A DNA stretch of 64,000 bases from Streptomyces sp. NBC_00513 (lineage in GTDB: Bacteria > Actinomycetota > Actinomycetes > Streptomycetales > Streptomycetaceae), in NCBI RefSeq assembly GCF_041431415.1, contig NZ_CP107845.1:4526001-4590000 (forward strand), written 5' to 3'. Positions 3,874 through 38,513 of this stretch are shown in pieces. The stretch's first letter is position 1. The number at the start of each line of letters is the position of its first letter. Made by a program: the position numbers and the translations under genes. The notes below the pieces were generated by a model. That model searched no databases, was not told the DNA's origin, and was given only the letters and a program-made list of their open reading frames with translations.

Positions 3874-3888
3874 CTGACGGTTCGTCAG
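3874..3888. promoter_or_regulatory. Operator copy 1: CTGACG-GTT-CGTCAG
   Basis: This is a perfect 6+3+6 palindrome 12 bases before the amidohydrolase. Its left arm can also serve as a -35 (CTGACG), followed after 16 bases by TACCGT at 3896-3901 as a -10. A bound repressor would then block the promoter directly. The same palindrome occurs at 15894, 17794 and 38499, with a near copy at 17733. Confidence 0.7.
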
Positions 3889-3900
3889 ATCGACGCTACC

Positions 3901-5130
3901 GTGGTTCACATGGAGACCTTCCCGAAGATCATCTCGGTGGACGACCACACGGTGGAGCCCCCTCATGTCTGGCGGGACCGGCTCCCGTCCAAGTACCACG
4001 ACGTCGGCCCGCGCGTCGTCCGCGCCCCCCTGAAGGAAATGACCTTCCTGGGCGGCAAGTTCGCCCCCGTCATGGGGGCGAAGGGCGACGACGGCCCGGT
4101 GGGCGACTGGTGGGTCTACGAAGACCTGCACCGCCCGCTCACCCGCCTCGACACCGCGGTCGGGTACGACCGCGACGAGATCAAACTGGAAGTCATCACC
4201 TACGAGCAGATGCGCCCGGGGTCCTTCGCGGTTCCCGACCGGCTCGCGGACATGGACGTCAACCACGTCCAGTCGGCCCTGTGTTTCCCCACTTTCCCGC
4301 GCTTTTGCGGGCAGACCTTCACCGAGGCCAAGGACCGGGAGCTCGGACTGCTCGGCGTCCGCGCCTACAACGACTGGATGGTGGAGGAGTGGTGCGGCCC
4401 CGACGCGGCGGGCCGGCTCATCCCCCTCACCCTCGTCCCCCTGTGGGACGCCCGACTCGCCGCGGCCGAGGTCCGCCGCAACGCGGCCCGGGGCGTGCGG
4501 GCCGTCGCCTTCTCGGAGATACCGCCCCACCTCGGGCTGCCGTCCATCCACACCGACGACTGGGACCCGTTCCTCCAGGCGTGCGACGAGACGGGCACGG
4601 TCATCGCCATGCACATCGGTTCCTCCTCGCGCATGCCCTCCACCTCCGCCGACGCCCCGCCGGCGGTCGGTTCGACCATCACCTTCGCCAACTGCTGCTT
4701 CTCGATGGTGGACTGGCTGATGAGCGGCAAGTTCGAACGCTTCCCCAACCTCAAGATCATGTACGCCGAGGGGCAGATCGGCTGGATCCCCTACATCCTG
4801 GAGCGCGCGAACGTGGTGTGGGAGGAGAACCGCGGCTGGGGCGGGGTCGCCGACAAGGTGCTGCGCCCGCCGTCGGAACTCTTCGCCGAGCACGTCTTCG
4901 GCTGCTTCTTCGACGACGCCTTCGGGCTGCGGAACCTGGACTCCATCGGTGTGGCCAACGTCCTCTATGAGACGGACTACCCGCACTCCGACTCCACCTG
5001 GCCCAAGTCCCGGGAGGTCGGCGAGGCCCAGATGGGACACCTCGCCCCCGACGTGGTCGACCGCATCGTCCGCGGCAACGCCATCGACCTGCTGGGCCTC
5101 ACCCCGGAGGGTCTCTGGCCGGGCGCGTAG
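3901..5130 (+). CDS. Amidohydrolase 2 family metal-dependent hydrolase
   Basis: The protein has 409 residues and looks like an amidohydrolase-2 TIM-barrel enzyme (PF04909). It opens with IISVDDHTVEPP, a form of the family's N-terminal metal motif, has MHIGSSS mid-protein (about 239) and YETDYPHSDS near the C-terminus (about 358), where the family carries its last metal-binding Asp. The substrate is unknown; relatives hydrolyse or decarboxylate small aromatic or acyl compounds. GTG 3901 and ATG 3910 are both possible starts and neither has a Shine-Dalgarno. With the promoter inferred upstream the transcript may begin near 3908, giving a leaderless ATG. The operator upstream links it to the LLM and SDR genes further on. 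Confidence 0.8.
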   Translation: MVHMETFPKIISVDDHTVEPPHVWRDRLPSKYHDVGPRVVRAPLKEMTFLGGKFAPVMGAKGDDGPVGDWWVYEDLHRPLTRLDTAVGYDRDEIKLEVITYEQMRPGSFAVPDRLADMDVNHVQSALCFPTFPRFCGQTFTEAKDRELGLLGVRAYNDWMVEEWCGPDAAGRLIPLTLVPLWDARLAAAEVRRNAARGVRAVAFSEIPPHLGLPSIHTDDWDPFLQACDETGTVIAMHIGSSSRMPSTSADAPPAVGSTITFANCCFSMVDWLMSGKFERFPNLKIMYAEGQIGWIPYILERANVVWEENRGWGGVADKVLRPPSELFAEHVFGCFFDDAFGLRNLDSIGVANVLYETDYPHSDSTWPKSREVGEAQMGHLAPDVVDRIVRGNAIDLLGLTPEGLWPGA

Positions 5131-5189
5131 ACCCGGGCGCCGAAGCCTCACCCGGCCCGCGGCGGCCGGCGGGACGCGACCCCCGGCAC

Positions 5190-5231
5190 GGCGCTCGGCC
5201 CCGGACGGAACGCGTCCGGGGGCCGAGCGCC
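5190..5231. terminator. Long stem-loop after the amidohydrolase gene
   Basis: GGCGCTCGGCCCCGGACG (5190-5207) pairs with 5213-5231 with one bulged G and a five-base loop. The 18-bp GC stem lies 60 bases past the amidohydrolase stop and is a convincing intrinsic terminator. Confidence 0.75.
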
Positions 5232-5355
5232 GCGGCGTTCGACGGGTCGGGGCGGGCAAGGGGCTTGATCCGGCGCGACCTTGGCGCACCCCCGCCTTGC
5301 GGGCGGGAGCGACGCCAGGGCATGATTCGCCAGAGCAAACCGGGGGAGGACAGCT

Positions 5356-6255
5356 GTGGTGGACAAGCGGACCGTGGTGACCGTGGTGTTGTGCGCGGTG
5401 GCCGCACTGGGGGCATCCGCCGCCATGACAAAGGTGGTGCCGGCCGCAGACCAGGCGGCGGCCACACGGGCGGAGGGTGCTCCCTCGGGGCCGGCGTCAC
5501 CCAGCCCGTCATCGCGATCGCAATCGCCGAAGCAACCGCAACTGTCCACGTCTCCGGCGCCCCGACCGACCGCCGTGACCCCCGGCCCGGGCGGTCCCGT
5601 GAAGTTCGCCGGGGCGCTGTTCGAAGGCAACCCGGAAGGCCGTGTGGACGGCGACCACTTCTGCACGGCGACCGTCGTGCACAGCCCCGGACGGAACCTG
5701 ATCGTCACCGCCGGGCACTGCCTGGCCCCCGGCAAACAGGGCGCGAACGGCCCGATATTCGCACCCGCGTACGCCGGCACCACGGCCCCGCTCGGTGCCT
5801 GGCGGCTCGAAGAGGTCTACGAGGACGAGCGCTGGACGGATGACGCGAACGACGACTACGACCTCGCCTTCGCCCGTCTCGCCCCCGACTCCTCCGGCCG
5901 CAACATCGAGGACGTCACCGGCGCGGCCGTCCTGGACACCACGGGCCGCACGGGCGAGCAGGTCACGGTGACCGGCTACCCGGCCGACCGCGGCGTGCCG
6001 CGCACCTGCACGGCGGTGGCGGTACGCGAGAAGGCGGCGGAGCAGCGGTTCGACTGCGCCGACTTCCCCGGGGGCACCAGCGGCAGCGCGTGGATCGCCC
6101 GCGACGGCAAGATCGTCGGCGTGCTGACGGGCGGCGACACGGACGACGTCTCGACGAGCACCGTCCTCGGGGAGTACGCGGCCACCCTCTACCGCCGCGC
6201 GACCGGGACCGCGCCCGGGACCGCGAGTACGCCCGGGAGCGCCGCGGCGCGGTGA
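5356..6255 (+). CDS. Secreted trypsin-like serine protease (S1 fold)
   Basis: The protein has 299 residues: an N-terminal hydrophobic signal or anchor (about 8-25), a Ser/Pro/Thr-rich linker (about 38-75), and a chymotrypsin-fold domain. The triad is visible as His121 in TAGHC, Asp169 in YDLAF and Ser242 in GGTSGSA. The Ser-Gly-Ser form of the last motif is typical of glutamyl-endopeptidase-like V8 relatives. Four cysteines could form disulphides. The GTG start at 5356 follows a GGGGGAGG ribosome site. The gene stands alone after a terminator. The stop codon falls in the first unit of a 15-bp tandem repeat. Confidence 0.85.
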   Translation: MVDKRTVVTVVLCAVAALGASAAMTKVVPAADQAAATRAEGAPSGPASPSPSSRSQSPKQPQLSTSPAPRPTAVTPGPGGPVKFAGALFEGNPEGRVDGDHFCTATVVHSPGRNLIVTAGHCLAPGKQGANGPIFAPAYAGTTAPLGAWRLEEVYEDERWTDDANDDYDLAFARLAPDSSGRNIEDVTGAAVLDTTGRTGEQVTVTGYPADRGVPRTCTAVAVREKAAEQRFDCADFPGGTSGSAWIARDGKIVGVLTGGDTDDVSTSTVLGEYAATLYRRATGTAPGTASTPGSAAAR

Positions 6256-6386
6256 GTCGCGCCGCGGTGATCCGCGCCGCGGTGAGTCACGGCGGGGTGA
6301 TCCGCGGCGCGGTGAGCCACACCGCAGTGGGCCGTGCCGAGCTGATCCGCGCTGCGGTGGGTCGTGCCGCGGTGGGTCGTGCCGCG
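6252..6386. repeat. Nine-unit 15-bp tandem repeat
   Basis: Nine consecutive 15-base units follow the pattern GTGAKYCRCGCCGCG without insertions or deletions; the last two are identical. A further unit from 6387 is degenerate. The array starts at the last codon of the protease gene and runs towards the NUDIX gene stop at 6471. In one plus-strand frame it would encode five-residue Ala-Val-x-x-x repeats, but no start or ribosome site supports a gene. It is probably a minisatellite that grew between convergent genes. Confidence 0.8.
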
Positions 6387-6470
6387 CCGTGGCGTCCCGT
6401 GCCGCGTCGGTACGCCGGCGCGGTCGTCCCGCGCCGCGTCCCGACGGGCCGGAGCCGGGCCGGCCCCGGC

Positions 6471-6911
6471 TCACACCATCAGGCCGAGGTGCACCGGCTC
6501 GGCGGACACGTCCGCCAGCAGGTCCGCCAACCGCGGCGGCCACAGCGGCTCCCCGAGCGCCGCCAGCGCGTCCCGCGAGAGCCAACTCCACTGGGCGTCG
6601 GGCGACTCCGGGACGGGATCGCGCAGCGGGCCCGAGGTGACGTAGATGTGCTCGTGCTGCCGGACGGGGATGCCCTGGTGGGTGAAGTCGTGCTCCCAGG
6701 TGCAGAGCAGCCGGCGAGGTTCGAGATCGGTCCACCCGGTCTCCTCGCGCAACTCGCGCCGCACACATTCCTCGGGGCTTTCCCCGGGGTCGATTCCCCC
6801 GCCGGGGGGAAGCCAGTGGATGCCCACTTCCACGTTGTTCTCCCGAAAGAGAAATACCGATCCCGTGGGCGACAGGACCACAATGCGCGCTGCCTGACGT
6901 GGAGTTCTCAT
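6471..6911 (-). CDS. NUDIX hydrolase
   Basis: From the ATG at 6911 the protein has 146 residues and carries a complete NUDIX box, G-x5-E-x7-REL-x-EETGW, at about residues 43-65. The family cleaves nucleoside diphosphates linked to another group, using Mg2+ bound by the Glu residues of the box. The upstream frame stays open for 71 more codons but is low-complexity and lacks family similarity, so I chose the internal ATG of MRTPRQAARIVVLS. It converges on the protease gene across the tandem repeat. The substrate cannot be told from sequence. Confidence 0.85.
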   Translation of the reverse strand: MRTPRQAARIVVLSPTGSVFLFRENNVEVGIHWLPPGGGIDPGESPEECVRRELREETGWTDLEPRRLLCTWEHDFTHQGIPVRQHEHIYVTSGPLRDPVPESPDAQWSWLSRDALAALGEPLWPPRLADLLADVSAEPVHLGLMV

Positions 6912-7179
6912 CAGATCAGGGTACGACTGAAAAGGCCGGACGGTAACTGTCCTGCAGTCGGGCGCATTTCCCGAATTCCCCGGAGCGCAGACGATTGAAC
7001 ACGCCGAAATCGGGGGAGTCGGCCGTTTCCGCGGGGCCGTTGACGAAATCGGGATCGGCGGTGGGCGGTGCCCGCCCGGCGGTGGGCGGTACCCGCGCCC
7101 CCGAAGGGCGCGGGCCCGGTTCACACGGCGCGGGCCGGGGTGACCCCGCGCGGGCCCGGTCGATCCGTGCGGGGTCGGT

Positions 7180-7791
7180 TCACCGCGCGCGGGACCGGAT
7201 CGGAGCGTCGTCGTCGCGCTCGACGCACCAGTCGAGGAGCGAGGGCCAGGGGCCGTATCCCGCGTCCTCGCCCAGGTGCCCCTGGCCGGCCAGGACGTCC
7301 ACCGGCAGGCCGAGCGGCTCGGCGAAGACGGCGGCGGCGCCCTCCGGGCAGCACGGGTCGTCGTCGCCGCCGACCATCCGGACGTACCCGGCCGTGGCGT
7401 ACAGCTGCGCGGACGAAACCCGGGGCGGCGCGAACGCGGCGACCTCCGGGTACCGGCCCAGGTAGCCCGCCGACGGCGGGGCGACGAGGAGCACCCGGTC
7501 GACCGGGACCGCCACGTCGCCCCGGGCCGCCGCGTGGAGCCACAGCACGCAGGCCAGGCTGTGGCAGACGACGGTGCGCCGCCGACCGGGCAGCGCGCCG
7601 AGCCGCTCGCGCAGCTCGGCCAGCCACACCTCCAGGTCCGGATGGTCCGGGTCGGGAAGGGCCGGGTAGTCCACGGCGTGCCCCGAGGCCGTGAGCCGGT
7701 CGGCCAGCCAGTGTTCCCAGTGGCCGGCGGGCCGTTGGTTCTGCCAACCGTGGAGTATCAGGAAGCCGTCCTCGACCAAGGCGTCGGTCAT
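7180..7791 (-). CDS. RBBP9/YdeN-type alpha/beta serine hydrolase
   Basis: This 203-residue protein has the compact RBBP9/YdeN layout: ILHGWQNQ at the first strand (about 12-19), the nucleophile elbow CHSLA with Ser near 77, an Asp in the GGDDDP stretch near 144 and His in GQGHLG near 172. The elbow has Cys in place of the usual first Gly, which is allowed in this family. The natural substrate is unknown. It appears to be a single-gene unit. Confidence 0.75.
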   Translation of the reverse strand: MTDALVEDGFLILHGWQNQRPAGHWEHWLADRLTASGHAVDYPALPDPDHPDLEVWLAELRERLGALPGRRRTVVCHSLACVLWLHAAARGDVAVPVDRVLLVAPPSAGYLGRYPEVAAFAPPRVSSAQLYATAGYVRMVGGDDDPCCPEGAAAVFAEPLGLPVDVLAGQGHLGEDAGYGPWPSLLDWCVERDDDAPIRSRAR

Positions 7792-7887
7792 CGTTCTCGC
7801 AATCGTGGGAAGACACCGGGAAGTTCGAAGCGATCATGGCCGCGCCCGTCCCCCCGGGTCCAGTCCCTCCGTTCCGCCCTGCCCCTC

Positions 7888-11760: not shown

Positions 11761-11849
11761 GGGCCCGACCCTGGGGCAAGGCGGGGTTTCGCTTCCCTCT
11801 CCCACCGGCCTTACGACGAGGAAATGTCCTTCTCGGGTAAAGAGGACGA

Positions 11850-15893: not shown

Positions 15894-15908
15894 CTGACGG
15901 ACCGTCAG
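15894..15908. promoter_or_regulatory. Operator copy 2: CTGACG-GAC-CGTCAG
   Basis: This perfect 6+3+6 palindrome lies 67 bases before the LLM oxidoreductase start. It overlaps a possible promoter, TTGCCT (15890-15895), 17 bases, GACGAT (15913-15918). It matches the copies at 3874, 17794 and 38499 in all 12 arm positions. Confidence 0.7.
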
Positions 15909-15975: not shown

Positions 15976-16923
15976 ATGGCGCGCGTGTTTCCCGAAGGCC
16001 GGCTGGTGTACGGGATGCAACTCCCGATCCAGTCGCAGAGCACCATCTACGCCGAGCCCTGGGAGGCGACGGCCGGCGCCGCCGAACTCGCCGCGGTGGC
16101 CCGGGCCGCCGACCGGGCCGGTTTCGGTTACGTGGCCACCTGCGACCACGTGGCCATCCCGCGCGCGATGGCCGGGCCCATGAGCACCGTCTGGTACGAC
16201 CCGGTGGCCACCCTGTCCTTCCTCGCGGGGATCACCGAACACGTCCGGTTGCTGAGCCACGTCGCGATCGTCGGCCTGCGGCATCCGTTGATCACCGCAA
16301 AGCAGTACGCCACGCTCGACCACCTCTGCGGCGGCCGGCTGATCCTCGGGGTCGGCGCGGGGCACGTGCGGGAGGAGTTCGAGGCCCTCGGCGTCGACTT
16401 CGAGCGGCGCGGGGCCGTGCTCGACGAGACGCTGGACGCGTTGCGGGTGGCGCTCGGGCCGGAGGAGTACCCGGAGTTCGAGGGCGGGTCGTTCTCGTTC
16501 CGGGACCTGGGCCAGTTGCCCCGGCCCACGCAGACCCGCATCCCCTTCTGGGTCGGCGGCTCCTCGCCCGCCGCCGTGCGCCGCGCGGCGGTGCGCGGTG
16601 ACGGCTGGCTCCCGCAGGGGGATCCGCGCGACCGGCTTCCGGAGCGGATCGCCCGGATCAGGGAGCTGCGCGAGGCGGCGGGGGTCACCCGCCCCATCGA
16701 GATCGGTGCCATCACCGAGCCCCTGTACGTGGGCGAGCCCGGCTGGGACACCGGCCGGCGGGCCCTCACCGGAAAGGCCGAGGCGCTCGCGGAGTCCCTG
16801 CGGGAGTACCGGGCGCTGGGCGTGGACCAGATCCAGGTCCGGTTCCGCAATCGGGACGTCGCCGAACTGACCGACCAGATCGCCGCCTTCGGGGCCGAGG
16901 TGGCCCCCCTCCTCAACGACTAG
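15976..16923 (+). CDS. LLM-class F420-dependent oxidoreductase
   Basis: The 315-residue enzyme is a luciferase-like TIM barrel. YATLDHLCGGRLILGVGAG is the hallmark segment of the actinobacterial F420-dependent subgroup (TIGR03619-like), and WVGGSSPAAVRRA is the phosphate-binding part. It probably carries out hydride transfer with reduced F420; the substrate is unknown. I chose the ATG at 15976 because AGGTGGGG precedes it; a GTG at 15964 is in frame. The SDR gene follows after 16 bases, so the two are likely co-transcribed under the operator at 15894. Confidence 0.82.
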   Translation: MARVFPEGRLVYGMQLPIQSQSTIYAEPWEATAGAAELAAVARAADRAGFGYVATCDHVAIPRAMAGPMSTVWYDPVATLSFLAGITEHVRLLSHVAIVGLRHPLITAKQYATLDHLCGGRLILGVGAGHVREEFEALGVDFERRGAVLDETLDALRVALGPEEYPEFEGGSFSFRDLGQLPRPTQTRIPFWVGGSSPAAVRRAAVRGDGWLPQGDPRDRLPERIARIRELREAAGVTRPIEIGAITEPLYVGEPGWDTGRRALTGKAEALAESLREYRALGVDQIQVRFRNRDVAELTDQIAAFGAEVAPLLND

Positions 16924-16939: not shown

Positions 16940-17725
16940 ATGGGCAAGTTGGACGGACGCGTCGTCGTCATCACCGGTGCGGCGCGCGGTCAGGGCGAGC
17001 AGGAGGCCCGGCTCTTCGCGGCGGAGGGCGCCAAGGTGCTCCTGGGCGACGTGTTGGACGAGCAGGGCGCCGCGGTCGCCAAGGAGATCGGCGAGGACCG
17101 GGCCCGGTACGTACGGATGGACGTGAGCCGCGAGGAGGACTGGGCCGCCGCCGTCGAGGCGGCGAAGGAGGCCTTCGGCCGGATCGACGGGCTGGTCAAC
17201 AACGCGGGCATCCTGCGCTTCAACGAGCTGACCGCGACCCCGCTGGAGGAGTTCCAGCAGGTGATCCGGGTCAACCAGGTCGGCGCGTTCCTCGGCATCA
17301 AGGCCGTCGCGCCCGAGATCGCGGCGGCCGGCGGGGGCACGATCGTCAACACCTCCTCGTACACCGGTCTGACGGGCATGGCGTACGTCGGCGCGTACGC
17401 GGCGACCAAGGCCGCGATCCTGGGTCTGACCAGGGTGGCGGCGCTGGAACTGGCGGGAAGGAACATCCGGGTCAACGCCATGTGCCCGGGCGCCGTGGAC
17501 ACGCCGATGGCCAACCCGGCGCTGCTGGACCCGGCGGGGGTGAGCGACGAGGCCAGGGACGCGATGGCCGAGTTGTACAAGCGGGTCGTGCCGATGGGGC
17601 GGGTCGGCCGGCCGGACGAGATCGCGCGCCTGGCGCTCTTCCTGACCGGCGAGGACTCCTCGTACATCACCGGGCAGCCGTTCGTCATCGACGGGGGCTG
17701 GATGGCCGGCGTGAGCATCCTCTGA
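16940..17725 (+). CDS. Short-chain dehydrogenase/reductase
   Basis: The 261-residue classical SDR has cofactor motif GAARGQGEQEA (about 13-23), NNAG near 89, catalytic Ser in NTSSYTG, and Y-x3-K as YAATK near 155. Asp38 after the second strand (LLGDV) favours NAD+. Such enzymes oxidise secondary alcohols, including steroid-like substrates. It follows the LLM gene by 16 bases. A near-perfect operator begins eight bases after the stop, marking the next unit. Confidence 0.88.
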   Translation: MGKLDGRVVVITGAARGQGEQEARLFAAEGAKVLLGDVLDEQGAAVAKEIGEDRARYVRMDVSREEDWAAAVEAAKEAFGRIDGLVNNAGILRFNELTATPLEEFQQVIRVNQVGAFLGIKAVAPEIAAAGGGTIVNTSSYTGLTGMAYVGAYAATKAAILGLTRVAALELAGRNIRVNAMCPGAVDTPMANPALLDPAGVSDEARDAMAELYKRVVPMGRVGRPDEIARLALFLTGEDSSYITGQPFVIDGGWMAGVSIL

Positions 17726-17732: not shown

Positions 17733-17747
17733 CTGATGGGGCGTCAG
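17733..17747. promoter_or_regulatory. Operator copy 3a (imperfect): CTGATG-GGG-CGTCAG
   Basis: This matches the palindrome in 11 of 12 arm positions. It lies just upstream of TTGACG (17751-17756), a good -35, so with copy 3b downstream it brackets the promoter of the next LLM gene. Confidence 0.55.
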
Positions 17748-17793: not shown

Positions 17794-17808
17794 CTGACGC
17801 AACGTCAG
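17794..17808. promoter_or_regulatory. Operator copy 3b: CTGACG-CAA-CGTCAG
   Basis: This perfect palindrome extends to TCTGACG-CAA-CGTCAGA (17793-17809). It lies 23 bases before the TTG start of the LLM gene and probably just downstream of the transcription start, where a repressor would block elongation. Confidence 0.72.
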
Positions 17809-17831: not shown

Positions 17832-18959
17832 TTGGAATTCGGGCTCTTCGTGCAGGGATACGTGCCTGAGGCGCGGTCCAAGGTCGACCCCGAGGCGGAG
17901 CACAAGGCGCTGATCGAGGAGACCGAGTACGTCATCCAGGCCGACAAGTCCGGCTTCAAGTACGCCTGGGCCTCCGAGCACCACTTCCTGGAGGAGTACT
18001 CGCACCTCTCCGCGAACGAGGTGTTCCTCGGCTATCTCGCCCACGCCACCGAGCGCATCCACCTCGGCTCCGGCATCTTCAACCCGCTGGCCCCCGTGAA
18101 CCACCCGGTCAAGGTCGCGGAGAAGGTCGCCATGCTCGACCACCTCTCCAAGGGGCGCTTCGAGTTCGGCACCGGCCGCGGCGCCGGCAGCCACGAGATC
18201 CTCGGCTTCCTCCCGGGCATCGAGGACATGAACGGCACCAAGGAGATCTGGGAGGAGACCATCGCGGAGTTCCCCAAGATGTTCCTCCAGGAGGAGTACG
18301 AGGGGTTCAGCGGCAAGCACTGGTCGCTGCCGCCGCGGAAGATCTTCCCCAAGCCGTACGGCAAGGCCCACCCGGCCATGTGGTACGCCGCGGGATCCCC
18401 CACCTCGTACGCCATGGCCGCCAAGAAGGGCCTCGGCGTCCTCGGCTTCAGCGTCCAGAAGGTCTCCGACATGGAGTGGGTGCTGGAGCAGTACAAGACG
18501 GCCATCCAGGAGGCGAAGGCCATCGGCGCCTTCGTCAACGACAACGTCATGGTCACCTCGACCGCGATCTGCGCCGAGACCCACGACAAGGCCGTCGAGA
18601 TCGCCGTCAACGCCAACATGAACCGCTTCCAGTCGCTGGTCTTCCGCTACCACGACACCTTCCCGCGGCCCGAGGCGATCCCGCAGTGGCCCGAGACGCT
18701 CCCCGAGTACAACGCGGAGATCATCGAGCTGCTGATCGCCGAGGAACTGCTGATCTGCGGAGACCCGTCCGAGGTGCTCCGGCAGTGCAAGCGCTGGGAG
18801 CAGGCGGGCGCCGACCAACTGTCCTTCGGCCTGCCGACCGGGGTGTCCTACGAGGACACCATGACCACCGTGAAACTCATCGGGGAGCACGTCATCCCGA
18901 AGATCGACACGGACCCGGTACACCGCACCACCCGCTTCCGTGAGGCCTCCGGGTCCTGA
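17832..18959 (+). CDS. LLM-class flavin-dependent oxidoreductase
   Basis: The 375-residue protein resembles bacterial-luciferase/alkanal monooxygenase-like enzymes: SEHHFLEEYSHLSANEVFLGYLA lies at the position of the luciferase EHH motif (about 56-58), and AMLDHLSKGRFEFGTGRG is the second hallmark. It lacks the F420-subgroup signature seen in the 15976 protein, so FMN is the more likely cofactor. The start is an uncommon TTG at 17832, preceded by AAAGGACGG. Two operators bracket the inferred promoter. It may act with the deacylase and aldehyde dehydrogenase downstream. Confidence 0.82.
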   Translation: MEFGLFVQGYVPEARSKVDPEAEHKALIEETEYVIQADKSGFKYAWASEHHFLEEYSHLSANEVFLGYLAHATERIHLGSGIFNPLAPVNHPVKVAEKVAMLDHLSKGRFEFGTGRGAGSHEILGFLPGIEDMNGTKEIWEETIAEFPKMFLQEEYEGFSGKHWSLPPRKIFPKPYGKAHPAMWYAAGSPTSYAMAAKKGLGVLGFSVQKVSDMEWVLEQYKTAIQEAKAIGAFVNDNVMVTSTAICAETHDKAVEIAVNANMNRFQSLVFRYHDTFPRPEAIPQWPETLPEYNAEIIELLIAEELLICGDPSEVLRQCKRWEQAGADQLSFGLPTGVSYEDTMTTVKLIGEHVIPKIDTDPVHRTTRFREASGS

Positions 18960-19221: not shown

Positions 19222-19306
19222 AAATGGCCCGACCCACCCGGCCGGCGAGGCTGAACCGCCCCCCGTAAGACCGCGTCAGCGAACCCGTCAGGGACGAAGG
19301 GACGTC

Positions 19307-21046
19307 ATGCTCGACCACCTGATCAAGGGAGCCACCGTCGTGGACGGGACCGGCGCCCCCGCGTTCATCGCCGACGTCGGGACGAGGGACGGCCGGATCG
19401 CCGTCATCGCCCCGCCGGGAACCGTCACCGAGGAGGCCCGGACCGGCGAGGATGCCACCGGGCTCGTCCTGACCCCCGGGTTCATCGACCCGCACACGCA
19501 CTACGACGCCCAATTGTTCTGGGACCCGTACGCCACGCCTTCCATGAACCACGGCGTCACCACCGTGGCCGGCGGCAACTGTGGTTTCACGCTCGCCCCG
19601 CTCCATCCCGACCGGCCCGAGGACGCCGACTACACCCGGCGCATGATGAGCAAGGTCGAGGGGATGGCCCTCAAGGCCCTCGAGGAGGGCGTCGACTGGA
19701 CCTGGTCCTCGTTCGGCGAGTACCTCGACGCCCTGGAGGGCCGGATAGCCGTCAACGCCGGTTTCATGGTGGGGCATTGCGCGCTGCGCCGGTACGTGAT
19801 GGGCGAGGACGCCGTCGGCGGACAGCCCACGCCGGAGCAGATGCATCAGATGCTCGACTTGTTCCACGACGCGATGAACGCCGGTGCCTGGGGCCTGTCC
19901 ACCACTCAGTCCTCCACGCATTCCGACGGCGCCGGCTCCCCGGTGGCCTCCCGTCACGCGAAGCCGGAGGAGCTGCTCGCGCTCTCCCGCGCGGTCTCCG
20001 AACACGAGGGCACCCAGCTCGAAGCGATCGTCGCGGGCTGCCTCGACCAGTTCTCCGACGAGGAGATCGACCTGTTCGTCGAGATGAGTGCCGCCGCCGG
20101 CCGGCCCCTGAACTGGAACGTCCTCACCGTCGACGCGTCCGTCCCCGAGCGCGTCCCGCGCCAGCTGATCCCCAGCGAGCGGGCCCGCAAGGCCGGCGGC
20201 CGGATCGTCGCGCTCACCATGCCGATCCTGACCCCCATGAACATGTCGCTCGGCACGTTCTGCGCGCTGAACCTCATCCCCGGCTGGGGCGAGGTCCTCG
20301 GCCTGCCCGTCCCCGAGCGGATCGCGAGGCTGCGCGACACCGACGTGCGCGCCGAGATGCTGCGCCGCGCGGACAGCAGGGAGGCCGGTGTCTTCCGGCG
20401 GCTCGCCGACTTCGGGCGCTACGTCATCGGCGACACGTACAGCGAGGAGAACGAGGGCCTCTCGGGCCGGGTCGTCGGCGACATCGCCGCCGAACGGGGC
20501 CAGGACGCCTTCCACTGTCTGGTGGAGATCTGCGCCAACGACGACCTGCGCACCGTCCTGTGGCCGATGCCCACCGACAACGACCCGGCGAGCTGGGCCC
20601 TGCGCCAGGAGACCTGGCAGCACGAGGACGTCATGTTGGGCGGCTCCGACGCGGGCGCCCACCTGGACCGGATGTGCGGCGCCCCGTACACGACCCGCTT
20701 CCTCGGGGACTGTCTGCGCGGACGCCGGCTCCTGCCGCTGGAACAGGCCGTACGGATGCTCACCGACGACCCGGCCCGGCTGTTCGGGCTGCGCGAACGC
20801 GGCCGGATCACCGAGGGGTTCCACGCGGACCTGGTTCTCTTCGACCCGGAGCGGATCGAGGCCGGGCCGGCGACGCTCGTGCACGATCTGCCCGGGGACA
20901 GTCCGCGGTTGGACGCGCGGGCGATCGGGATCGTGTCCGTGCGCGTCAACGGCGTGGAGACGATCCGCGACGACGAGGTGACCGGCGCGATCCCCGGCAT
21001 CGTGCTGCGCTCCGGCCGCGACACGAGGACGGTGAGCACCCGATGA
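19307..21046 (+). CDS. N-acyl-D-amino-acid deacylase / D-aminoacylase-like amidohydrolase
   Basis: This 579-residue enzyme has the N-terminal beta segment and metal motif FIDPHTHYD (about 63-71), a GNCGF motif (about 91) and a C-terminal return to the beta domain (ADLVLFDPERI), the layout of D-aminoacylases. The family hydrolyses N-acyl-D-amino acids or related amides with one or two Zn2+. Several actinobacterial paralogues act on other amides, so the substrate is open. ATG 19307 follows GGGACGAAGGG. It is coupled to the aldehyde dehydrogenase by an ATGA overlap. Two direct half-sites CGTCAG lie at 19274 and 19286. Confidence 0.82.
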   Translation: MLDHLIKGATVVDGTGAPAFIADVGTRDGRIAVIAPPGTVTEEARTGEDATGLVLTPGFIDPHTHYDAQLFWDPYATPSMNHGVTTVAGGNCGFTLAPLHPDRPEDADYTRRMMSKVEGMALKALEEGVDWTWSSFGEYLDALEGRIAVNAGFMVGHCALRRYVMGEDAVGGQPTPEQMHQMLDLFHDAMNAGAWGLSTTQSSTHSDGAGSPVASRHAKPEELLALSRAVSEHEGTQLEAIVAGCLDQFSDEEIDLFVEMSAAAGRPLNWNVLTVDASVPERVPRQLIPSERARKAGGRIVALTMPILTPMNMSLGTFCALNLIPGWGEVLGLPVPERIARLRDTDVRAEMLRRADSREAGVFRRLADFGRYVIGDTYSEENEGLSGRVVGDIAAERGQDAFHCLVEICANDDLRTVLWPMPTDNDPASWALRQETWQHEDVMLGGSDAGAHLDRMCGAPYTTRFLGDCLRGRRLLPLEQAVRMLTDDPARLFGLRERGRITEGFHADLVLFDPERIEAGPATLVHDLPGDSPRLDARAIGIVSVRVNGVETIRDDEVTGAIPGIVLRSGRDTRTVSTR

Positions 21047-22515
21047 CCTCCGTCGGACCGCAGCGGCTGTACATCGGAGGCGAGTGGGTCGAACCGGCCG
21101 CCGGTCACTACGAGGTGGTCAACCCGGCCGACGAGTCCGTCGTCGGACTCGCCCCGGAGGCCACCCGCGGCCAGGTCGAGGAGGCGGCGCGCGCGGCGGC
21201 GGAGGCCTTCGAGGGCTGGTCGCGGACGACGCCCGAGGCGCGGGCCTCGATCCTCGACCGGGCCGCCGACGTCATGCGGCGCGAGTACGAGCCGTGGGCG
21301 GAGCTGGCCCGCGCCGAGACGGGCGCGCCCACCGGCATCGCGCGCGGCATGCAGGTCGGCGTGGGCGTGGCCCGCTTCCGGCGGTACGCGAAGGGCGCAC
21401 TGGAGCCGGTGGAACGCGGTCTGCCGCCGCAGGTCACCGACGCCGGCCCGATGGGGAGGGCGGGCATCCTGGGCGCGCTGGAGGTGCGCCAGCCGGTCGG
21501 TGTGGTCACCTGCGTCACCTCGTACAACAACCCGTGGGCGAACCCGGCGGGCAAGGTGGCCCCGGCGCTCGCCATGGGCAACACGGTCGTGGTCAAACCG
21601 GCCCCGCAGGACCCGTTGTCGGTGTTCCGGATGGCCGAGGCCCTGCACGAGGCCGGGGTCCCGGCGGGCGTGGTGAACGTGGTGTGCGGCACCTCGGTCG
21701 AGGTCGGCGAGGCGGCCGTCGACTCGCGCCACGTCGACATGGTGTCCTTCACCGGTTCCACGGCCGTCGGGCAGCGCATCGCGGAGGTGTGCGGCCGGAC
21801 GATGAAGCGGCAGTTGATGGAACTGGGTGGCAAGGGCGCGGCGATCGTGCTGGAGGACGCCGACCTCGACGCGGCCGTGGCGGGCATCGGCACCACCTTC
21901 TCCTTCTACTCCGGTCAGATCTGCACCGCCCCGACCCGGGTGATCGTCCACCGGTCGGTGTACGAGCCGCTGGTGGAGAAGCTGACCGGCTACCTGGCGT
22001 TCATGAAGGTCGGCGACCCGGGCGAGCGCGGCACCGTGGTCGGCCCGGTGATCTCGGCGGCGCACCGCGACCGCGTGGAGTCGTACGTCGAGCTGGGGAG
22101 GAAGGAGGGCGCGCGGATCGCGTACGGCGGCGAACGCCCGGTCGTCGGGGCGGGCCGCGGCTTCTACGTCGCGCCGACCCTCCTGGTGGACTGCACCCAC
22201 GACATGCGGGTGGTCCGGGAGGAGATCTTCGGGCCGGTCGTGGTCGTCGTGCCCTTCGACGGCGGCGAGGACGAGGCCGTGGCCCTGGCCAACGACAGCG
22301 ACTTCGGGCTGCTCTCCTACGTGTGGTCCGGGGACTCGGCGCGGGCCTTCCGGATCGCGCGGCGGCTGCGCGCCGGCGGCGTCGGCATCAACACCATCGG
22401 CCGGAACATGGAGGCCCCGTTCGGCGGCTTCAAACGGTCGGGGGTGGGCCGGGACGTCGGCTCGTACGCCCTGCACGCCTACAGCGAGATCCAGTCGATC
22501 GTCTGGCCGGGCTGA
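21043..22515 (+). CDS. Aldehyde dehydrogenase family protein
   Basis: The 490-residue enzyme shows the family residues: the Asn of TSYNNPWAN (near 166), the NAD-binding FTGSTAVGQ, general base Glu in MELGGKG (near 264), nucleophile Cys in SGQICTAP (near 298) and EEIFGPVV (near 395). It oxidises an aldehyde to the acid with NAD(P)+. Its ATG overlaps the deacylase stop, so both work in one pathway, possibly on the product made by the LLM and SDR enzymes upstream. Confidence 0.9.
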   Translation: MTSVGPQRLYIGGEWVEPAAGHYEVVNPADESVVGLAPEATRGQVEEAARAAAEAFEGWSRTTPEARASILDRAADVMRREYEPWAELARAETGAPTGIARGMQVGVGVARFRRYAKGALEPVERGLPPQVTDAGPMGRAGILGALEVRQPVGVVTCVTSYNNPWANPAGKVAPALAMGNTVVVKPAPQDPLSVFRMAEALHEAGVPAGVVNVVCGTSVEVGEAAVDSRHVDMVSFTGSTAVGQRIAEVCGRTMKRQLMELGGKGAAIVLEDADLDAAVAGIGTTFSFYSGQICTAPTRVIVHRSVYEPLVEKLTGYLAFMKVGDPGERGTVVGPVISAAHRDRVESYVELGRKEGARIAYGGERPVVGAGRGFYVAPTLLVDCTHDMRVVREEIFGPVVVVVPFDGGEDEAVALANDSDFGLLSYVWSGDSARAFRIARRLRAGGVGINTIGRNMEAPFGGFKRSGVGRDVGSYALHAYSEIQSIVWPG

Positions 22516-26355: not shown

Positions 26356-26466
26356 GCGGGGCAGGGTACGCCGCCGTGCGCCGGGGAGCCGGGTCGCGCG
26401 GGACGATCCGTCAGATGGGGCGGATGGGTGGACGGGCGGGGTGCCGTCAGGCCCGGCCCGGGGCGG

Positions 26467-28554: not shown

Positions 28555-28567
28555 GGAGGTCACCTCC
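28555..28567. promoter_or_regulatory. Palindromic ribosome-binding site GGAGGT-C-ACCTCC
   Basis: The bases just upstream of the XRE start form a perfect odd palindrome containing the Shine-Dalgarno sequence. The mRNA could fold the SD into a small hairpin, or the site could be a protein operator. Confidence 0.4.
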
Positions 28568-28681
28568 TGACGATCAGGTTCACGGTATGTGACCGCTCCT
28601 GTCCAGCGCGTGGACTCGTACAGATGAAAAGTAGCGGTCGGATTGCTGTGAACCACCTTGTCCAAACGGGACGTTGATTCC

Positions 28682-29411: not shown

Positions 29412-29440
29412 GGGTTTCCCGCCGTACGACACTGCCCGCG

Positions 29441-29956: not shown

Positions 29957-29989
29957 GCCGGGCGGGCGGAGCCCGAGCCGCGGGCTCCG

Positions 29990-30529: not shown

Positions 30530-30637
30530 GAGTGATCCCCCGGTGGACGCGACCCGATCGGTCGAACGCGTCAACGTACCAGGGGTCCCCCGCCCCCTCG
30601 CCGGGACGGCGGGCCGATCCCGGTCACGGTGGGCCGG

Positions 30638-31498: not shown

Positions 31499-31560
31499 GG
31501 CCGAGGCACCTCCGAGACGTGGGGCGGCCAACGTACGGGGTTCGGCGTGCGGACGGCAGA

Positions 31561-31597
31561 GGTTCGACACGGGTTCGACACGGTGGGTTCGACACGG
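31561..31597. repeat. Three copies of GGTTCGACACG between divergent genes
   Basis: GGTTCGACACG occurs at 31561, 31572 and (as GGGTTCGACACGG) 31585, in the shared promoter of the LLM and thioesterase genes. Tandem direct repeats at this place could bind a regulator of either gene, or be a simple slippage product. Confidence 0.5.
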
Positions 31598-31609
31598 CGG
31601 GGTGACGAC

Positions 31610-32362: not shown

Positions 32363-32457
32363 CGGGGCGCGGGCGGGGCGGGGACCCGGTCGGGCCCGGC
32401 CCCCGGGTTCGCGCGTTCGGGTTCGGGTCCGCGCGCCCGGTTCCGCCAGCGGTCCGG

Positions 32458-33786: not shown

Positions 33787-34019
33787 GTCGTCCCCCCAAG
33801 CTCTGGCGCGCACTGTAGTGGACAGGTTCGGTCGAATCCGGAAGGAGTAAGTCACGCCGCCCATAAGTGGCCGGAGAACGGCCGGAATATGAATGGTTCC
33901 GGACAGGATCTCGCCGGATGAGACAATCGTGGCACGTTTTGCCACTGACCTCGGACCCGGTTGTTTTCGGCCATACCGCGTTCACCCGGCGTTGTCCGCG
34001 GGCCCACGGCCTCGACGAC

Positions 34020-34929
34020 ATGAAGAAGGCACTCCTCGCCGCGACCGTCGTCGCCACCACCCTCGCCGCCTCCCTGGTCGCGGCCCCCGCCGCGACCGCC
34101 GCGGGCCGGGAATCCCCCCGGGACGGCCGGCACCAGAGCCGTTCCGCCATCCCCTTCACCGAGGCCTCGGTCACCGCCGGCGCCGACGGTGCGTTCACCC
34201 TCCGGTGGAACACCCGCGGCACCGAACGCGTCGAGATCCGGGCGAACGGCAAGGTCGTCGCCAAGGGCGGCTCCCGAGGCCGGGCCGTGGTCACGGGACT
34301 GCCCGCCGCCGACCGCCAGTGGTTCGACTTCAAGCCGCAGCGCGGCCAGGGCCTGCGCCTCGCCGACCGCCTCGTGCGACTGGAGGGAACGGCCAACTTC
34401 CGCGACGCCGGCGGCTACCGCACCACCGACGGCCGGTGGGTCAAGATGGGCGAGATCCACCGCTCCGACGCCCTGGCCAAGCTCACCGACAACGACCTCG
34501 CCAAGCTCCGCCGGCTGGGCGTGAAGACCGTCTTCGACCTGCGCACGACCGACGAGCGCACCAAGGACGTCGACCGCGTACCGGCCGGCGCGACGTACGT
34601 CGTGGCCGACGTCTTCGCCGGCTCCGGCTCCTTCCAGGCCCTGCCGAAGACCCCCGAGGAAGCCGCCGGAGGCGATGATCGACGCCGAGAAGAGCATGGT
34701 GTCCGGCGAGGGCGGCAGGAAGGCGTACGCCCGGGTCTTCCAGGGCATCGGGACCGACCGCGCCCGCGCCGTCCTCTTCCACTGCACCGCCGGCAAGGAC
34801 CGCACCGGCTGGTCGAACGCCACCCTGCTCACCGCCCTCGGCGTCCCGCGCGAGACCGTGCTGGCCGACTACCTGGCCGTCTCCCCGGCCGCCGCGCTGA
34901 CCAGGTGCTGCACCGTGTCCGGCGGCTGA
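34020..34929 (+). pseudogene. Secreted tyrosine-protein phosphatase, frameshifted and 3'-truncated
   Basis: A signal peptide (MKKALLAATVVATTLAASL...) leads into a Y_phosphatase3-type domain (NFRDAGGYRTTDGRWVKMGEIHRSD, about 125-150). The frame breaks near 34668: one extra G in GCCGCCGGAGGCG shifts it by +1. Removing that G joins TPEEAA to EAMIDAEKSM and the catalytic P-loop HCTAGKDRTGW at 34780-34815. The coding region then stops after DYLAVSPAAALTRCCTVSGG, about 80 residues sooner than such enzymes usually end. Both the shift and the missing tail point to decay; a base-calling error could explain the shift but not the tail. Confidence 0.8.
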
Positions 34930-34962
34930 ACCCGCGCCTCGTCCGGCAGCGCCGCGAGCAAC

Positions 34963-34996
34963 GGGGCCCGACCCGGATCGATCCCGGTCGGGCCCC
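34963..34996. terminator. Stem-loop between convergent genes
   Basis: GGGGCCCGAC (34963-34972) and GTCGGGCCCC (34987-34996) pair perfectly, with a partly self-complementary CCGGATCGATCCCG interior. It lies between the broken phosphatase and the FO synthase end and can serve both strands. Confidence 0.7.
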
Positions 34997-35045
34997 GCGC
35001 CACGTCGTCGTCCCTGCTCGATCCCTGCCGTCCCCGCTGCCGGCC

Positions 35046-37637
35046 CTACTCCGCGATCGGCAGCAGCTCCGGCAGGTGCCCGTCCGAGGCCGCGGCCGCC
35101 CGCTGCCGCTCCTCGGGCACCTCCCCGTACAGCGTCGTACGGGCCTTCGCCGGCCGCCCGGCCGCCTCCGCGACCGCGATCAGGTCCCGCACCGACTTGT
35201 ACGAGCCGTAACTCGACCCCGCCATGCGCGAGATGGTCTCCTCCATCAGCGTCCCGCCCAGGTCGTTCGCACCCGACCGGAGCATCTCCGCCGCACCCTC
35301 CGAGCCCAGCTTCACCCAGCTCGTCTGGATGTTGGTGATGTGCGGGTGCAGCAGCAACCGGGCCATCGCCGTCACCGCCCGGTTGTCGCGGACCGTCGGA
35401 CCCGGCCGGGCGATCCCCGCCAGGTACACCGGCGCGTTGGTGTGGATGAACGGGAGCGTCACGAACTCCGTGAACCCCTCCACGCCCTTGGCCACCGCGT
35501 CCCGCTGGATCCGGGCCAGCGTGCGGAAGTGCCCCAACCAGTGCCGCGGCTGGTCCACGTGCCCGTACATCATCGTCGACGAGGACCGGATGCCCAGCTC
35601 GTGCGCCGTGGAGACGACGTCGATCCAGTCCGCCGCCGGCAGCTTGCCCTTGGTGAGCACCCAGCGGACCTCGTCGTCCAGGATCTCCGCCGCCGTCCCC
35701 GGAATGGAGTCCAGCCCGGCCTCCTTGGCCGCCGTCAGCCAGTCCCGCACCGACATCCCGGTGCGGGTGGCACCGTTGACGACCTCCATCGGCGAGAAGG
35801 CGTGCACGTGCATGCCGGGCACCCGCTCCTTCACCGCCCGCGCGATGTCGAAGTACGCCGTCCCGGGCAGGTCCGGATGGATGCCGCCCTGCATGCACAC
35901 CTCGACCGCGCCCACGTCCCAGGCCTGCGCCGCCCGGTCGGCGACCTGGTCCAGCGAGAGCGTGTACGCGTCCGCGTCCGTACGGCGCTGCGCGAACGCG
36001 CAGAAGCGGCAGCCGGTGTAACAGACGTTGGTGAAGTTGATGTTCCGCGTGACGATGTACGTGACCTCGTCGCCCACCACCGACTTGCGCAGGTCGTCCG
36101 CGATCCGGCACAGCGCGTCCAACGCCGGGCCGTCCGCGTGCAACAGGGCGAGGGCCTGCTCGTCGGTCAGCGCCGTCGGATCGTCCGCCGCCCGGGCGAG
36201 GGCCGCCCGGACGTCCGTGTCGATCCGCTCCGGGACCATCCCGGGCGCCGCGGCCTCCCGCAGGGCGTCCCAGTCCCCGTAGACGTGATCGAAGTCCTCG
36301 CGCCGGTCGCCCGTCCGCCCCTCGGTGTCGATCGTGGTGTGCAGGTCGGTGCGCCCGTACGCGGTGAAACCCTCGTCGGGCTCCTGCCACGGCCGGCCCT
36401 CGACCGCGGCCGTCTCGTCCGCCAGCCCCGTCCGCGCGTCGGCCAACGCCCGCACGTGCGGCAGCAACCGGGGATCGAGCCACGGCTCCCCGCGCTCCAG
36501 GAACTCCGGATAGATCGTGAGGCGCTCGCGCAGCTCGAAGCCGGCGGCGGCCGTCCGCGCGGCCAGCTCCTCGATGTGCGGCCAGGGGCGCTCCGGGTTC
36601 ACGTGGTCGGGCGTCAGCGGCGACACCCCGCCCCAGTCGTCGATGCCCGCGCCGATCAGCAGCGCGTACTCCTCGTCGACCAGGTTCGGCGGAGCCTGGA
36701 TGCGGGCCGACGGACCGAGCAGGTGCCGGGCCACCGCGATGGCGGCCGCCAGCTCCTCCAACTCCGCGTCGGGCATGCCGCGCATGGCCGTGTCCGGCTT
36801 CGCCCGGAAGTTCTGGACGATCACTTCCTGGATGCCGTGGTAGCTGCGCTGGATCCGCCGCAGCTCGAAGAACGCGTCGGCGCGCTCCTCGTAGGTCTCC
36901 CCGATGCCGATCAGCACCCCGGTCGTGAACGGGACGTTGGAACGCCCCGCGTCCTCCAGCACCCGCAGCCGGACCGCCGGCTCCTTGTCCGGGGAACCGT
37001 GGTGCGGGCCGCCGGGCTCGGACCACAGACGGGTCGCGGTGGTCTCCAGCATCATCCCCATCGACGGCGCGACGGGCTTCAGCCGCTGGAGCTCGGACCA
37101 CGACAGGACACCCGGATTGAGGTGCGGGAGCAGACCCGTCTCCTCCAGAACCCGGATCGCCATCGCCCGCACGTAGGCCAGGGTGTCGTCGTAGCCGTGC
37201 GCGTCCAGCCACTCACGGGCCTCGGGCCAACGGTCCTCGGGACGGTCCCCGAGGGTGAACAGGGCCTCCTTGCAGCCCATCGCGGCACCCTTGCGCGCGA
37301 TGTCGAGGACCTCGTCCGGCGAGAGGTACATCCCGTGGCCGTCCCGGCGGAGCTTCCCGGGCACCGTGACGAACGTGCAGTAGTGGCACTTGTCGCGACA
37401 GAGACGGGTGAGGGGGATGAACACCTTGCGCGAGTACGTGATGACACCGGGCCGCCCGGCGGCGTCGAGCCCGGAGTCCCGCACCCGCGCGGCGGAGGCG
37501 GCGAGGTCCTTCAGGGACTCGCCGCGCGCCTGGAGGAGCACGGCCGCCTCGGTCGCGTCGAGCGCGACGCCGTCGCGGGCCCGCCGGAGCGCGCGGCGCA
37601 TCGCGTTGTCGGTCGGAGCGTCACTCGGAGTGGTCAT
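35046..37637 (-). CDS. fbiC: FO synthase, fused CofG/CofH radical SAM enzyme
   Basis: The 863-residue protein has two radical-SAM halves, as in actinobacterial FbiC. The first (CofG-like) has CRDKCHYC near 80, and the second (CofH-like) has CYTGCRFC near 540. Each C-x3-C-x2-C binds a [4Fe-4S] cluster and SAM. Together they make 7,8-didemethyl-8-hydroxy-5-deazariboflavin (FO), the chromophore of F420, from tyrosine and the flavin precursor. Length matches the family (about 860). It is monocistronic here. LLM proteins in the window are likely users of the cofactor. Confidence 0.95.
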
Positions 37638-37677
37638 GGCCCGAGCATACGATCCACCGATCCGGCGGTGGAGGGGG

Positions 37678-38460
37678 TCATCGCATCAGCTCACCGGCGT
37701 TGACCAGCAGAGACTGGCCGGTTATCGCCCGTGCCCGGTCCGATGCCAGGAACGCGGCGGCGTCCGCGACGTCCCCGTCCGTCGCGAGATCGGGCAGTGC
37801 CATCCGCTCGGTGAGCCGGGCCCGCACCTCCTCCTCGGGCACCCCCTCGCCGTGCGCGGTGAACGTCACGAACGCCTGCACCGGCGGCCCCCACATCCAG
37901 CCCGGCAGCACGGTGTTGACCCGGATCCGGTACGGCCCGAGCTCCCGGGCCATCGAGTACATGGCGGAGGTCAGCGCCCCCTTGGAGGCGGCGTACGCGG
38001 CCTGCCGCACCTGCGACGGACTCGCCACCGCCGACTGCGTCCCGATGATCACGACGGAGCCGCCGGCCCGCTTCAGCGCGGGCAGGGCGGCCCGCGTCAT
38101 GCGCAGGGTGCCCAACAGGTTCACGTCGAGGATCTGCTGCCAGGTCCCGAAGTCGGCGTCCTCCAGGCCGCCGAAGTACGAGTCCCAGGCCGCCACGTGC
38201 ACCACCGCGTCCACCCCGCCGAACCGCTCCTCGGCCAGGGCCACCAGGGCCTCGCAGCGTGCCTCGTCCGTGATGTCGGTCGGCAGGTACGCGGTGTGCG
38301 CCCCGTCCGGGTCGATCTCGGCGGCGGACTTGACCAGGTTCGCCTCGGTCCGCGCCCCCAGCACGGCGTTCCCGCCGTCCCGCACCACGGTGGCGGCCAC
38401 CTGGTGCCCCAGCCCGGCCCCGACCCCCGACACGATGACGGTCTTCCCTCGCAGCAGCAT
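37678..38460 (-). CDS. Short-chain dehydrogenase/reductase
   Basis: The 260-residue protein has cofactor motif GVGAGLG (about 12-18), VHVAAWDSY in the NNAG position (a changed motif), Ser in IGTQSAV, and Y-x3-K as YAASK near 154. Arg37 (LGAR) favours NADP(H). It is under a perfect copy of the CTGACG palindrome 39 bases upstream, which links it to the amidohydrolase and LLM genes far to the left. The substrate is unknown. Confidence 0.85.
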
Positions 38461-38498
38461 GGCGTGCCCTCCAGGCCGGTGATGCCCACTCAGCAGAT

Positions 38499-38513
38499 CT
38501 GACGGGGCGTCAG
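38499..38513. promoter_or_regulatory. Operator copy 4: CTGACG-GGG-CGTCAG
   Basis: This perfect 6+3+6 palindrome is 39 bases upstream of the SDR ATG (minus strand). It shares all arm bases with the copies at 3874, 15894 and 17794. Confidence 0.7.

Follow-up and report, generated by a model that had tools for sequence, protein, structure and literature searches.

A 64,000-nucleotide stretch of the Streptomyces sp. NBC_00513 chromosome (NZ_CP107845.1, positions 4,526,001 to 4,590,000; hereafter the window) carries several copies of the palindrome CTGACG-N3-CGTCAG, each upstream of a gene. We think it likely that this palindrome is the operator of a TetR-family protein of the TetR_C_38 type, the ortholog of SCO4421 of S. 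coelicolor, and that this protein is a KstR-like repressor, distinct from KstR itself, of sterol or isoprenoid side-chain catabolism. The evidence is evenly balanced on the broader proposal that SCO4421-type TetR_C_38 proteins form an independent class of steroid-catabolism repressor, which would act on the sterol side chain across Streptomyces and on ring breakdown of the methylhexahydroindanedione propionate (HIP) type in other actinobacteria, through a single conserved operator with a left arm that can double as the -35 box; in Streptomyces their target island would be built around the afsK-afsR antibiotic-control locus. The narrower assignment would provide a function for a near-universal, unexplained Streptomyces TetR, name its candidate operator, for which this genome offers about 25 possible sites, and supply a candidate regulator for Streptomyces sterol use, as in yeast predation, thereby making the sensing and use of fungal sterols by Streptomyces directly testable. 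If the broader proposal is true, the protein would be the regulator so far missing from the picture of how Streptomyces assimilate fungal sterols when they prey on yeast.

Palindromic sites in the window and the genome

A pattern scan recovered the four perfect copies that an earlier note, made from the letters of the window, had reported (3874, 15894, 17794 and 38499), together with its copy with one mismatch at 17733. Each does stand before a gene, as the note had claimed, at distances of 21-84 bp: 21 bp before an amidohydrolase gene, 67 bp before a luciferase-like monooxygenase (LLM) gene that is followed by a short-chain dehydrogenase/reductase (SDR) gene, 84 and 23 bp before a second LLM gene, and 38 bp before a minus-strand SDR gene. 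In 100 dinucleotide shuffles of the window the expectation was 0.05 perfect copies and 0.59 copies with at most one mismatch, and the observed four and five, respectively, were reached in 0/100. At two mismatches there is no enrichment (9 seen vs 7.0 expected); sites at this level are therefore not to be counted, and those at 26400, 32186, 40064 and 59569 were rejected. The candidate operators (unstranded) and the genes that they adjoin are as follows, with the island to which the last operator refers described below.

3874..3888: perfect operator CTGACGGTTCGTCAG, the left arm of which coincides with the apparent -35 of the amidohydrolase promoter
3897..3902, plus strand: putative -10, TACCGT, 17 bp from the CTGACG arm
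3910..5130, plus strand: amidohydrolase (Amidohydro_2; PF04909, 2.9e-41), predicted regulon member; perfect site upstream in 6/6 orthologs
15894..15908: operator CTGACGGACCGTCAG, perfect, found by the pattern scan
15976..16923, plus strand: F420-type LLM oxidoreductase (TIGR03619, 232.8 bits, cut-off 166.9), probable member
16940..17725, plus strand: SDR, apparently in an operon with the preceding LLM gene (16-bp gap)
17733..17747: operator CTGATGGGGCGTCAG, one mismatch, left-hand copy of a tandem pair
17794..17808: perfect operator CTGACGCAACGTCAG, right-hand copy of the tandem; perfect site upstream in 3/3 orthologs
17832..18959, plus strand: LLM (luciferase-like) oxidoreductase, predicted regulon member from the sites of its orthologs
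19307..21046, plus strand: deacylase-like amidohydrolase (named by eye; no NCBIfam match), possible member
21043..22515, plus strand: aldehyde dehydrogenase, possible member; 4-bp overlap with the deacylase gene
37678..38460, minus strand: SDR (PRK07890 type, 335.9 bits, cut-off 258), predicted regulon member
38499..38513: perfect operator CTGACGGGGCGTCAG, marking the island's right edge; perfect site upstream in 2/2 orthologs

Membership is less certain in the middle of this list. Only 1/4 Streptomyces orthologs of the LLM gene at 15976..16923 has a site in the preceding 250 bp, and the homolog of this gene in another genome (G576) is preceded by a site with one mismatch. The deacylase gene had been proposed as a further member on account of two direct half-sites; CGTCAG is indeed present at 19274 and 19286, but it is absent from 3/3 Streptomyces ortholog promoters, none of which has an upstream site even at up to two mismatches, and the half-sites were rejected as an extra operator because they are not conserved. 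The gene itself may still belong to the regulon, its homolog in G576 (65% identity) having a perfect site 42 bp upstream. Similarly, the aldehyde dehydrogenase gene has an upstream site in 0/3 Streptomyces orthologs, and its G576 homolog (62%) has a perfect site 155 bp upstream.

The genome-wide scan that the earlier note had proposed gave 15 perfect sites in 8.62 Mb, against 0 for a reversed-pattern control, and 78 sites with at most one mismatch, against 37. Eight of the 15 perfect sites (8/14 of those on contig C1, which contains the window) fall within 65 kb, whereas the largest cluster in 20,000 random placements of 14 sites was 5. The perfect sites far from this cluster lie 9-115 bp before a gene in 7/7 cases, and these genes are mostly catabolic. 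One perfect site stands on the 167 kb contig C2 (G000:C2:152247-152261), 115 bp before a small gene of unknown function. The looser pattern CTGAYNNNNNRTCAG occurs 76 times in this genome (G000) vs 5 times when reversed, and many of its copies differ in the inner bases (CTGACCnnnGGTCAG; CTGACTCTTAATCAG, three times), so that some may be related operators that serve other regulators.

The island around afsK-afsR and its conservation

Mapping 140 kb of chromosome that include most of the window placed 15 sites with 0-1 mismatch between C1:4486206 and C1:4564513, an island of about 78 kb of which the window holds the right part. Many stand in divergent promoters, and for each the closest start codon downstream is 17-106 bp away. 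The genes of the island encode acyl-CoA dehydrogenases, CoA ligases, Ltp-type thiolases, ChsH2-type OB-fold proteins, enoyl-CoA hydratases, SDRs, LLM oxidoreductases, amidohydrolases and a flavin reductase. When the flanks of the 15 sites are read in both orientations, A (23/30) and T (17/30) predominate at the two positions that adjoin each arm on its outer side, giving the wider form atCTGACGnnnCGTCAGat. The dispersed catabolic regulon that had been postulated from the window thus stands in that its sites are conserved before orthologs, but it extends beyond the window to the whole island and to distant operons.

Perfect sites are present in 195/199 Streptomyces genomes, with a median of 13 (0-3 for the reversed control). 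Conservation at individual promoters was assessed at up to one mismatch in 80 loci around the regulatory gene and in stretches of 11 further genomes, accepting as ortholog the best match per region only, with at least 45% identity and 60% coverage and not at the end of a stretch. As the note had predicted for orthologues, the site is kept before g054 (45/45), g055 (44/45), g039 (76/77), g041 (76/80), g035 (38/39), g033 (24/25) and g030 (7/7), and among the window genes before g059 (6/6), g073 (3/3) and g092 (2/2), with 1/4 for g071 and 0/3 for both g074 and g075. Neighbouring genes lack it (afsK 0/87; g044 0/81, or 31/81 at two mismatches; g037 0/67), as do genes internal to operons (g042 0/74, g052 0/56, g053 0/54). 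All genes were called with a codon-usage script trained on this Streptomyces and applied to other families too, and start codons and distances are hence approximate. Five genomes (G118, G136, G027, G171 and G010) have neither the catabolic genes nor the sites in the 40 kb around the regulatory gene, with the TetR gene, afsK and an afsR-like gene still present; G044 shows the same picture over 80 kb.

The positions of the copies also bear on whether the palindrome is an operator at all, rather than an RNA hairpin, terminator or other structural repeat. In five genomes of family f80 (G495, G514, G529, G543 and G556; 4.3-5.5 Mb) the same 15-mer occurs 109-218 times each, which would favour a structural repeat. 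We read 17 copies in G495: 5 stand at convergent gene junctions, 7 inside called genes and 5 elsewhere, with none close before a gene start, so that a giant regulon in f80 was rejected and this family was left out of the co-occurrence argument below. In some of these copies (L279-L295) the TGA/TCA letters supply the stops of two convergent genes; the palindrome has another use in f80, possibly as a bidirectional terminator or a chromosome-organising repeat. For Streptomyces such an explanation is scarcely conceivable: a gene begins no more than 300 bp downstream of the perfect site in 102/102 cases (the island of this genome, stretches of G013, G036, G093, G106 and G128, and the 80 loci), and a -10 element follows at fixed spacing in three target families.

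The candidate repressor

The earlier note found no TetR-type gene in the window and proposed that the regulator acts in trans. No TetR domain was detected in 20 further window proteins scanned, a subset of the open reading frames. The candidate regulator is nevertheless close by: the sole PF19352 (TetR_C_38) protein of the genome is encoded inside the island, at C1:4512051-4512698 on the minus strand, 13.3 kb left of the window. It had appeared remote only because the edge of the window cuts the island. The protein has both TetR domains (PF00440, 4.5e-6; PF19352, 1.1e-72), and one gene separates its gene from that of AfsK (NF053615, 1505.6 bits, cut-off 1300), an order that identifies it by synteny as the SCO4421 ortholog. 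In S. coelicolor, SCO4421 is placed close to afsK/SCO4423 and has sporulation-linked, developmental expression, and the available part of that source gives no operator, regulon or pathway for it (PMC3878966). The literature that we covered, which leaves out most subscription journals, contains no description of the operator or of SCO4421 as its regulator, and the sequence TGACGNNNCGTCA was not found in print there.

An ortholog is present in 197/199 Streptomyces genomes, and the start region TAAGCTGACGNCATGACA of the gene is identical in 80/80 Streptomyces loci. The roughly 60 bp upstream (C1:4512698-4512760) are nearly invariant in the 80 loci, reading CCCCATTTGCA...TCGGTAAGCTGACGGCATG with few changes, and the start codon is preceded at 6 bases by TAAGCT. 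This points to a leaderless transcript, strongly constrained even where the regulon is lost. In genome G180 the TetR match (L198) spans only residues 1-130 of 215 and 12 perfect sites are kept; the protein may be truncated or disrupted there.

Linkage of candidate repressor and palindrome is clearest outside the genus. An operator with at most one mismatch lies within 200 bp of the TetR start in 10/16 homolog loci (14/16 at two mismatches), compared with 30/288 (53/288) of the other genes in these loci, a comparison set that includes likely targets; the 16 loci come from 25 homolog matches, and four f80 loci are counted among them. There are further cases, such as G329, in which a perfect site stands 52 bp before the TetR homolog. 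Perfect sites number 6-14 in the seven f81 genomes that possess the TetR, and of the five without a match four have 0-1 sites, the fifth (G609, 68% complete) having 10. The model of the Streptomyces protein is essentially all-helical (pLDDT 92.4), and the closest solved folds are EthR (template modelling (TM) score 0.74-0.80, query-normalised), followed at lower TM by mixed TetR proteins including FadR and DesT.

Operator-marked genes and their probable link to the sterol side chain

Whereas the earlier note spoke of an uncharacterised degradation route, the CYP125, FadA5, Ltp2/ChsH2-type and Rv3520c-type genes of this genome point to the side chain of sterols or isoprenoids. A divergent CYP125/FadA5 pair has one common operator with one mismatch; the CYP125 is nearest to PDB 2xn8 (5e-154), and the FadA5 matches 4ubv (2e-151) and the NCBIfam steroid 3-ketoacyl-CoA thiolase model (692 bits, cut-off 515). 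The sequence CTGAYGNNNCRTCAG was found within 63 bp at 30/30 CYP125 loci, this genome included (the best 30 of 135 loci); 25/30 have the operator at up to one mismatch, compared with 166/6000 random 150-bp windows of CYP125 loci, and in the other 5/30 both arms have changed symmetrically. A perfect site also stands 41 bp upstream of an Rv3520c-family F420 oxidoreductase gene of the LLM type (449.8 bits, cut-off 335). Other operator-marked genes outside the island comprise a MaoC-type hydratase operon, a fused acyl-CoA dehydrogenase, a ChsH2-like protein, an enoyl-CoA hydratase, another LLM protein, a ferredoxin reductase and a FadD17/CasI-like ligase whose hidden Markov model (HMM) match is below the cut-off; several of these identities were judged by eye.

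Within the island, g054 is closest to the lipid-transfer protein 6ok1 (2e-98), which we take to be Ltp2, and adjoins the ChsH2-like g053; g022 is nearest to 4x28, presumably a steroid acyl-CoA dehydrogenase. Across Streptomyces, the 135 genomes with CYP125 have a median of 14 sites and the 64 without it a median of 6 (p 7e-19 with phylogeny ignored; the table was put together by hand). Five f81 loci have the TetR_C_38 gene next to operator-bearing SDR, enoyl-CoA hydratase, CoA-transferase and nitronate-monooxygenase/FabK-like genes, with an operator between the SDR and enoyl-CoA hydratase genes and a CoA-transferase that resembles 6co6 (3e-95). We take these genes to be ipdF, echA20, ipdAB and ipdC, and 6co6 to be an IpdA homolog.

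Sterol use by Streptomyces is on record. In yeast predation, cyp125A13 and choD are up in co-culture and sterols are depleted, with large differences between strains, and the accessible text of that study mentions no TetR regulator (PMC13170338). CYP125A13 hydroxylates cholesterol in vitro (PMC9728343). According to the part of a genome survey available to us, the steroid pathway was not found in 55/57 Streptomyces genomes (PMC4810484).

Comparison with known regulators

The closest parallel is KstR (Rv3574 / MSMEG_6042), likewise a TetR-family repressor with a short palindrome at many dispersed, often divergent promoters. We take Rv3545c, Rv3546 and Rv3520c of M. tuberculosis to be CYP125, FadA5 and an F420-type LLM, respectively, and control of the side-chain genes cyp125 and fadA5, as exerted by KstR, is indicated in Streptomyces by operator position only. 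The regulon considered here differs in that kshA, a KstR target, is not part of it, there being no KshA gene in this genome. The KstR motif occupies the intergenic regions of Rv3545c/Rv3546 and Rv3520c/Rv3521, counterparts of two promoters marked by the Streptomyces operator, but it reads TnnAACnnGTTnnA, as opposed to CTGACGnnnCGTCAG here, and the possible S. coelicolor ortholog of KstR is SCO2319, not SCO4421 (PMC1995591). Furthermore, KstR is neither among the 26 PDB sequence matches of the Streptomyces TetR (E <= 0.01) nor among the 50 fold matches listed for it.

A second parallel, from the f81 loci, is KstR2 (Rv3557c), which controls ipdF/echA20/ipdAB-type genes of HIP catabolism in mycobacteria: the TetR_C_38 loci of f81 carry the operator beside what we take to be this same gene set. 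KstR2 belongs to another TetR subfamily and has a different operator, AnCAAGnnCTTGnT, and the Streptomyces island is not arranged as a HIP cluster. As for the nearest folds, EthR is only 18-19% identical, and EthR, FadR and DesT have targets and operators different from those of the Streptomyces TetR. SCO4421 itself is, by synteny, the same gene.

Promoter layout and proposed mechanism

The palindrome is placed as would be expected of a TetR-type operator that serves repression, in line with the earlier note. At 63/344 site-gene pairs a TANNNT hexamer starts 17 bp after the left arm, whereas any other offset past the site gives 0-4. A further peak, of 74, falls within the operator itself, where the core (GTACCGT, for instance) can fit the pattern unaided. 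The 63 pairs comprise the window amidohydrolase (7/7, this genome included), g054 (38/59) and g055 (18/60). With CTGACG being both a half-operator and an apparent -35, a bound dimer would have to compete with RNA polymerase.

The following mechanism can be proposed: CTGACG-N3-CGTCAG, in its wider form, would be the operator of the SCO4421-type TetR_C_38 repressor, a dimer of which would sit on the promoters of the afsK-afsR island and of distant operons such as CYP125/FadA5. Bound there, it would keep RNA polymerase away; at many ltp2-type and fadD promoters and at that of the amidohydrolase, the left arm doubles as the apparent -35. Release would be brought about by a pathway intermediate, most likely an acyl-CoA or a sterol-derived acid, and the likeness in fold to the acyl-CoA-binding FadR and DesT fits a CoA-ester inducer. 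The regulon would probably serve to degrade the side chains of sterols, for example those taken from fungi, or of related isoprenoids.

Weighing the assignment

A number of observations count against this assignment, and they concern the regulator, the sites and the substrate. Concerning the regulator, the Streptomyces TetR gene has in its own promoter only a site with two mismatches, lying over the start codon (90/90 orthologs); two fragmented Streptomyces assemblies with 9-10 sites have no TetR match; and the protein, with a near-invariant helix-turn-helix (HTH), persists in 21 genomes with 0-3 perfect sites, which implies either another role or degenerate sites there. Covariation of HTH and operator in such genomes was dropped as a test because the HTH hardly varies. 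Deletion of SCO4421 is described, in the portion of the source available, as having no overt phenotype (PMC3878966). Concerning the sites, G044 has none in the 80 kb around the TetR gene, yet 31 perfect ones elsewhere; one site with one mismatch in the present genome lies inside another TetR-like gene; and the -35 overlap is limited to three target families and not seen in others. The earlier note had held that copies in coding regions or before unrelated genes would speak against a regulon, and these occur in part: of eight distant perfect sites in G013 and G093, two mark the Rv3520c-type LLM and CYP125/FadA5, one lies within a gene, and at least three stand 65-258 bp before genes without a visible catabolic link.

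Three of the observations on the regulator would be accommodated if a different regulator, encoded elsewhere, bound the palindrome and the TetR near afsK merely neighboured its targets, for the TetR would then survive the loss of island and sites, need no more than a degenerate site in its own promoter, and be dispensable in the two assemblies that have sites without it. Set against this are the homologs outside the genus, which often have the operator in their own promoter and lie beside operator-bearing catabolic genes, and the agreement of site and TetR presence in f81, save one incomplete genome, so that we consider a different regulator very improbable.

Concerning the substrate, KshA_C, which stands for ring opening, was not found in this genome; a strong KshA (E below 1e-80) occurs in 18/199 Streptomyces genomes, and 12/12 of the KshA loci inspected among these 18 have no operator within about 1.5 kb. 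KshA was consequently rejected as a regulon member and ring opening placed outside the regulon; it is this lack of a full steroid pathway that favours side-chain catabolism of sterols or similar isoprenoids. Several steroid-named HMMs score below their cut-offs (HsaB 185/230, CasI 633/900, IpdE2 165/450), and 14 genomes without CYP125 carry at least 10 sites. The last point and the missing KshA would also agree with the same operator and TetR governing other substrates, such as branched, cyclic or terpenoid acids or aromatic or amide compounds, with CYP125/FadA5 recruited only in part of the genus; indeed the presence of most enzymes of the island (amidohydrolases, LLMs, SDRs, cyclase, flavin reductase) does not by itself indicate steroids. 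Such a regulon appears unlikely, however, in view of the conserved operator common to CYP125 and FadA5, the marking of Ltp2-, ChsH2-, Rv3520c- and FadD17-type genes as well, and the IpdA-like CoA transferase beside TetR and operator in other families. Control of sterol or isoprenoid side-chain breakdown by the SCO4421-type protein is thus the reading that we prefer.

Neighboring genes in the window

Three further genes of the window lie near these sites or near the LLM genes. An AfsR-like SARP/NB-ARC gene (644-3766, minus strand; identified by eye and by synteny with afsK) has a divergent promoter in common with the amidohydrolase gene, with the site 107 bp upstream. It was rejected as a target because 1/13 orthologs has a site in the 250 bp before the gene, and the shared site is hence more likely to serve the amidohydrolase gene. 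An 851-residue open reading frame (35046-37601, minus strand), judged by eye to be FbiC-like and so related to F420 precursor synthesis, lies near the F420-type LLM genes and has no operator before any of 7 orthologs. Finally, a gene for a Pyr4-like transmembrane terpene cyclase (PF25129; 15103-15750, minus strand) is divergent from the LLM operon, with the operator 143 bp upstream, and could be a further target.

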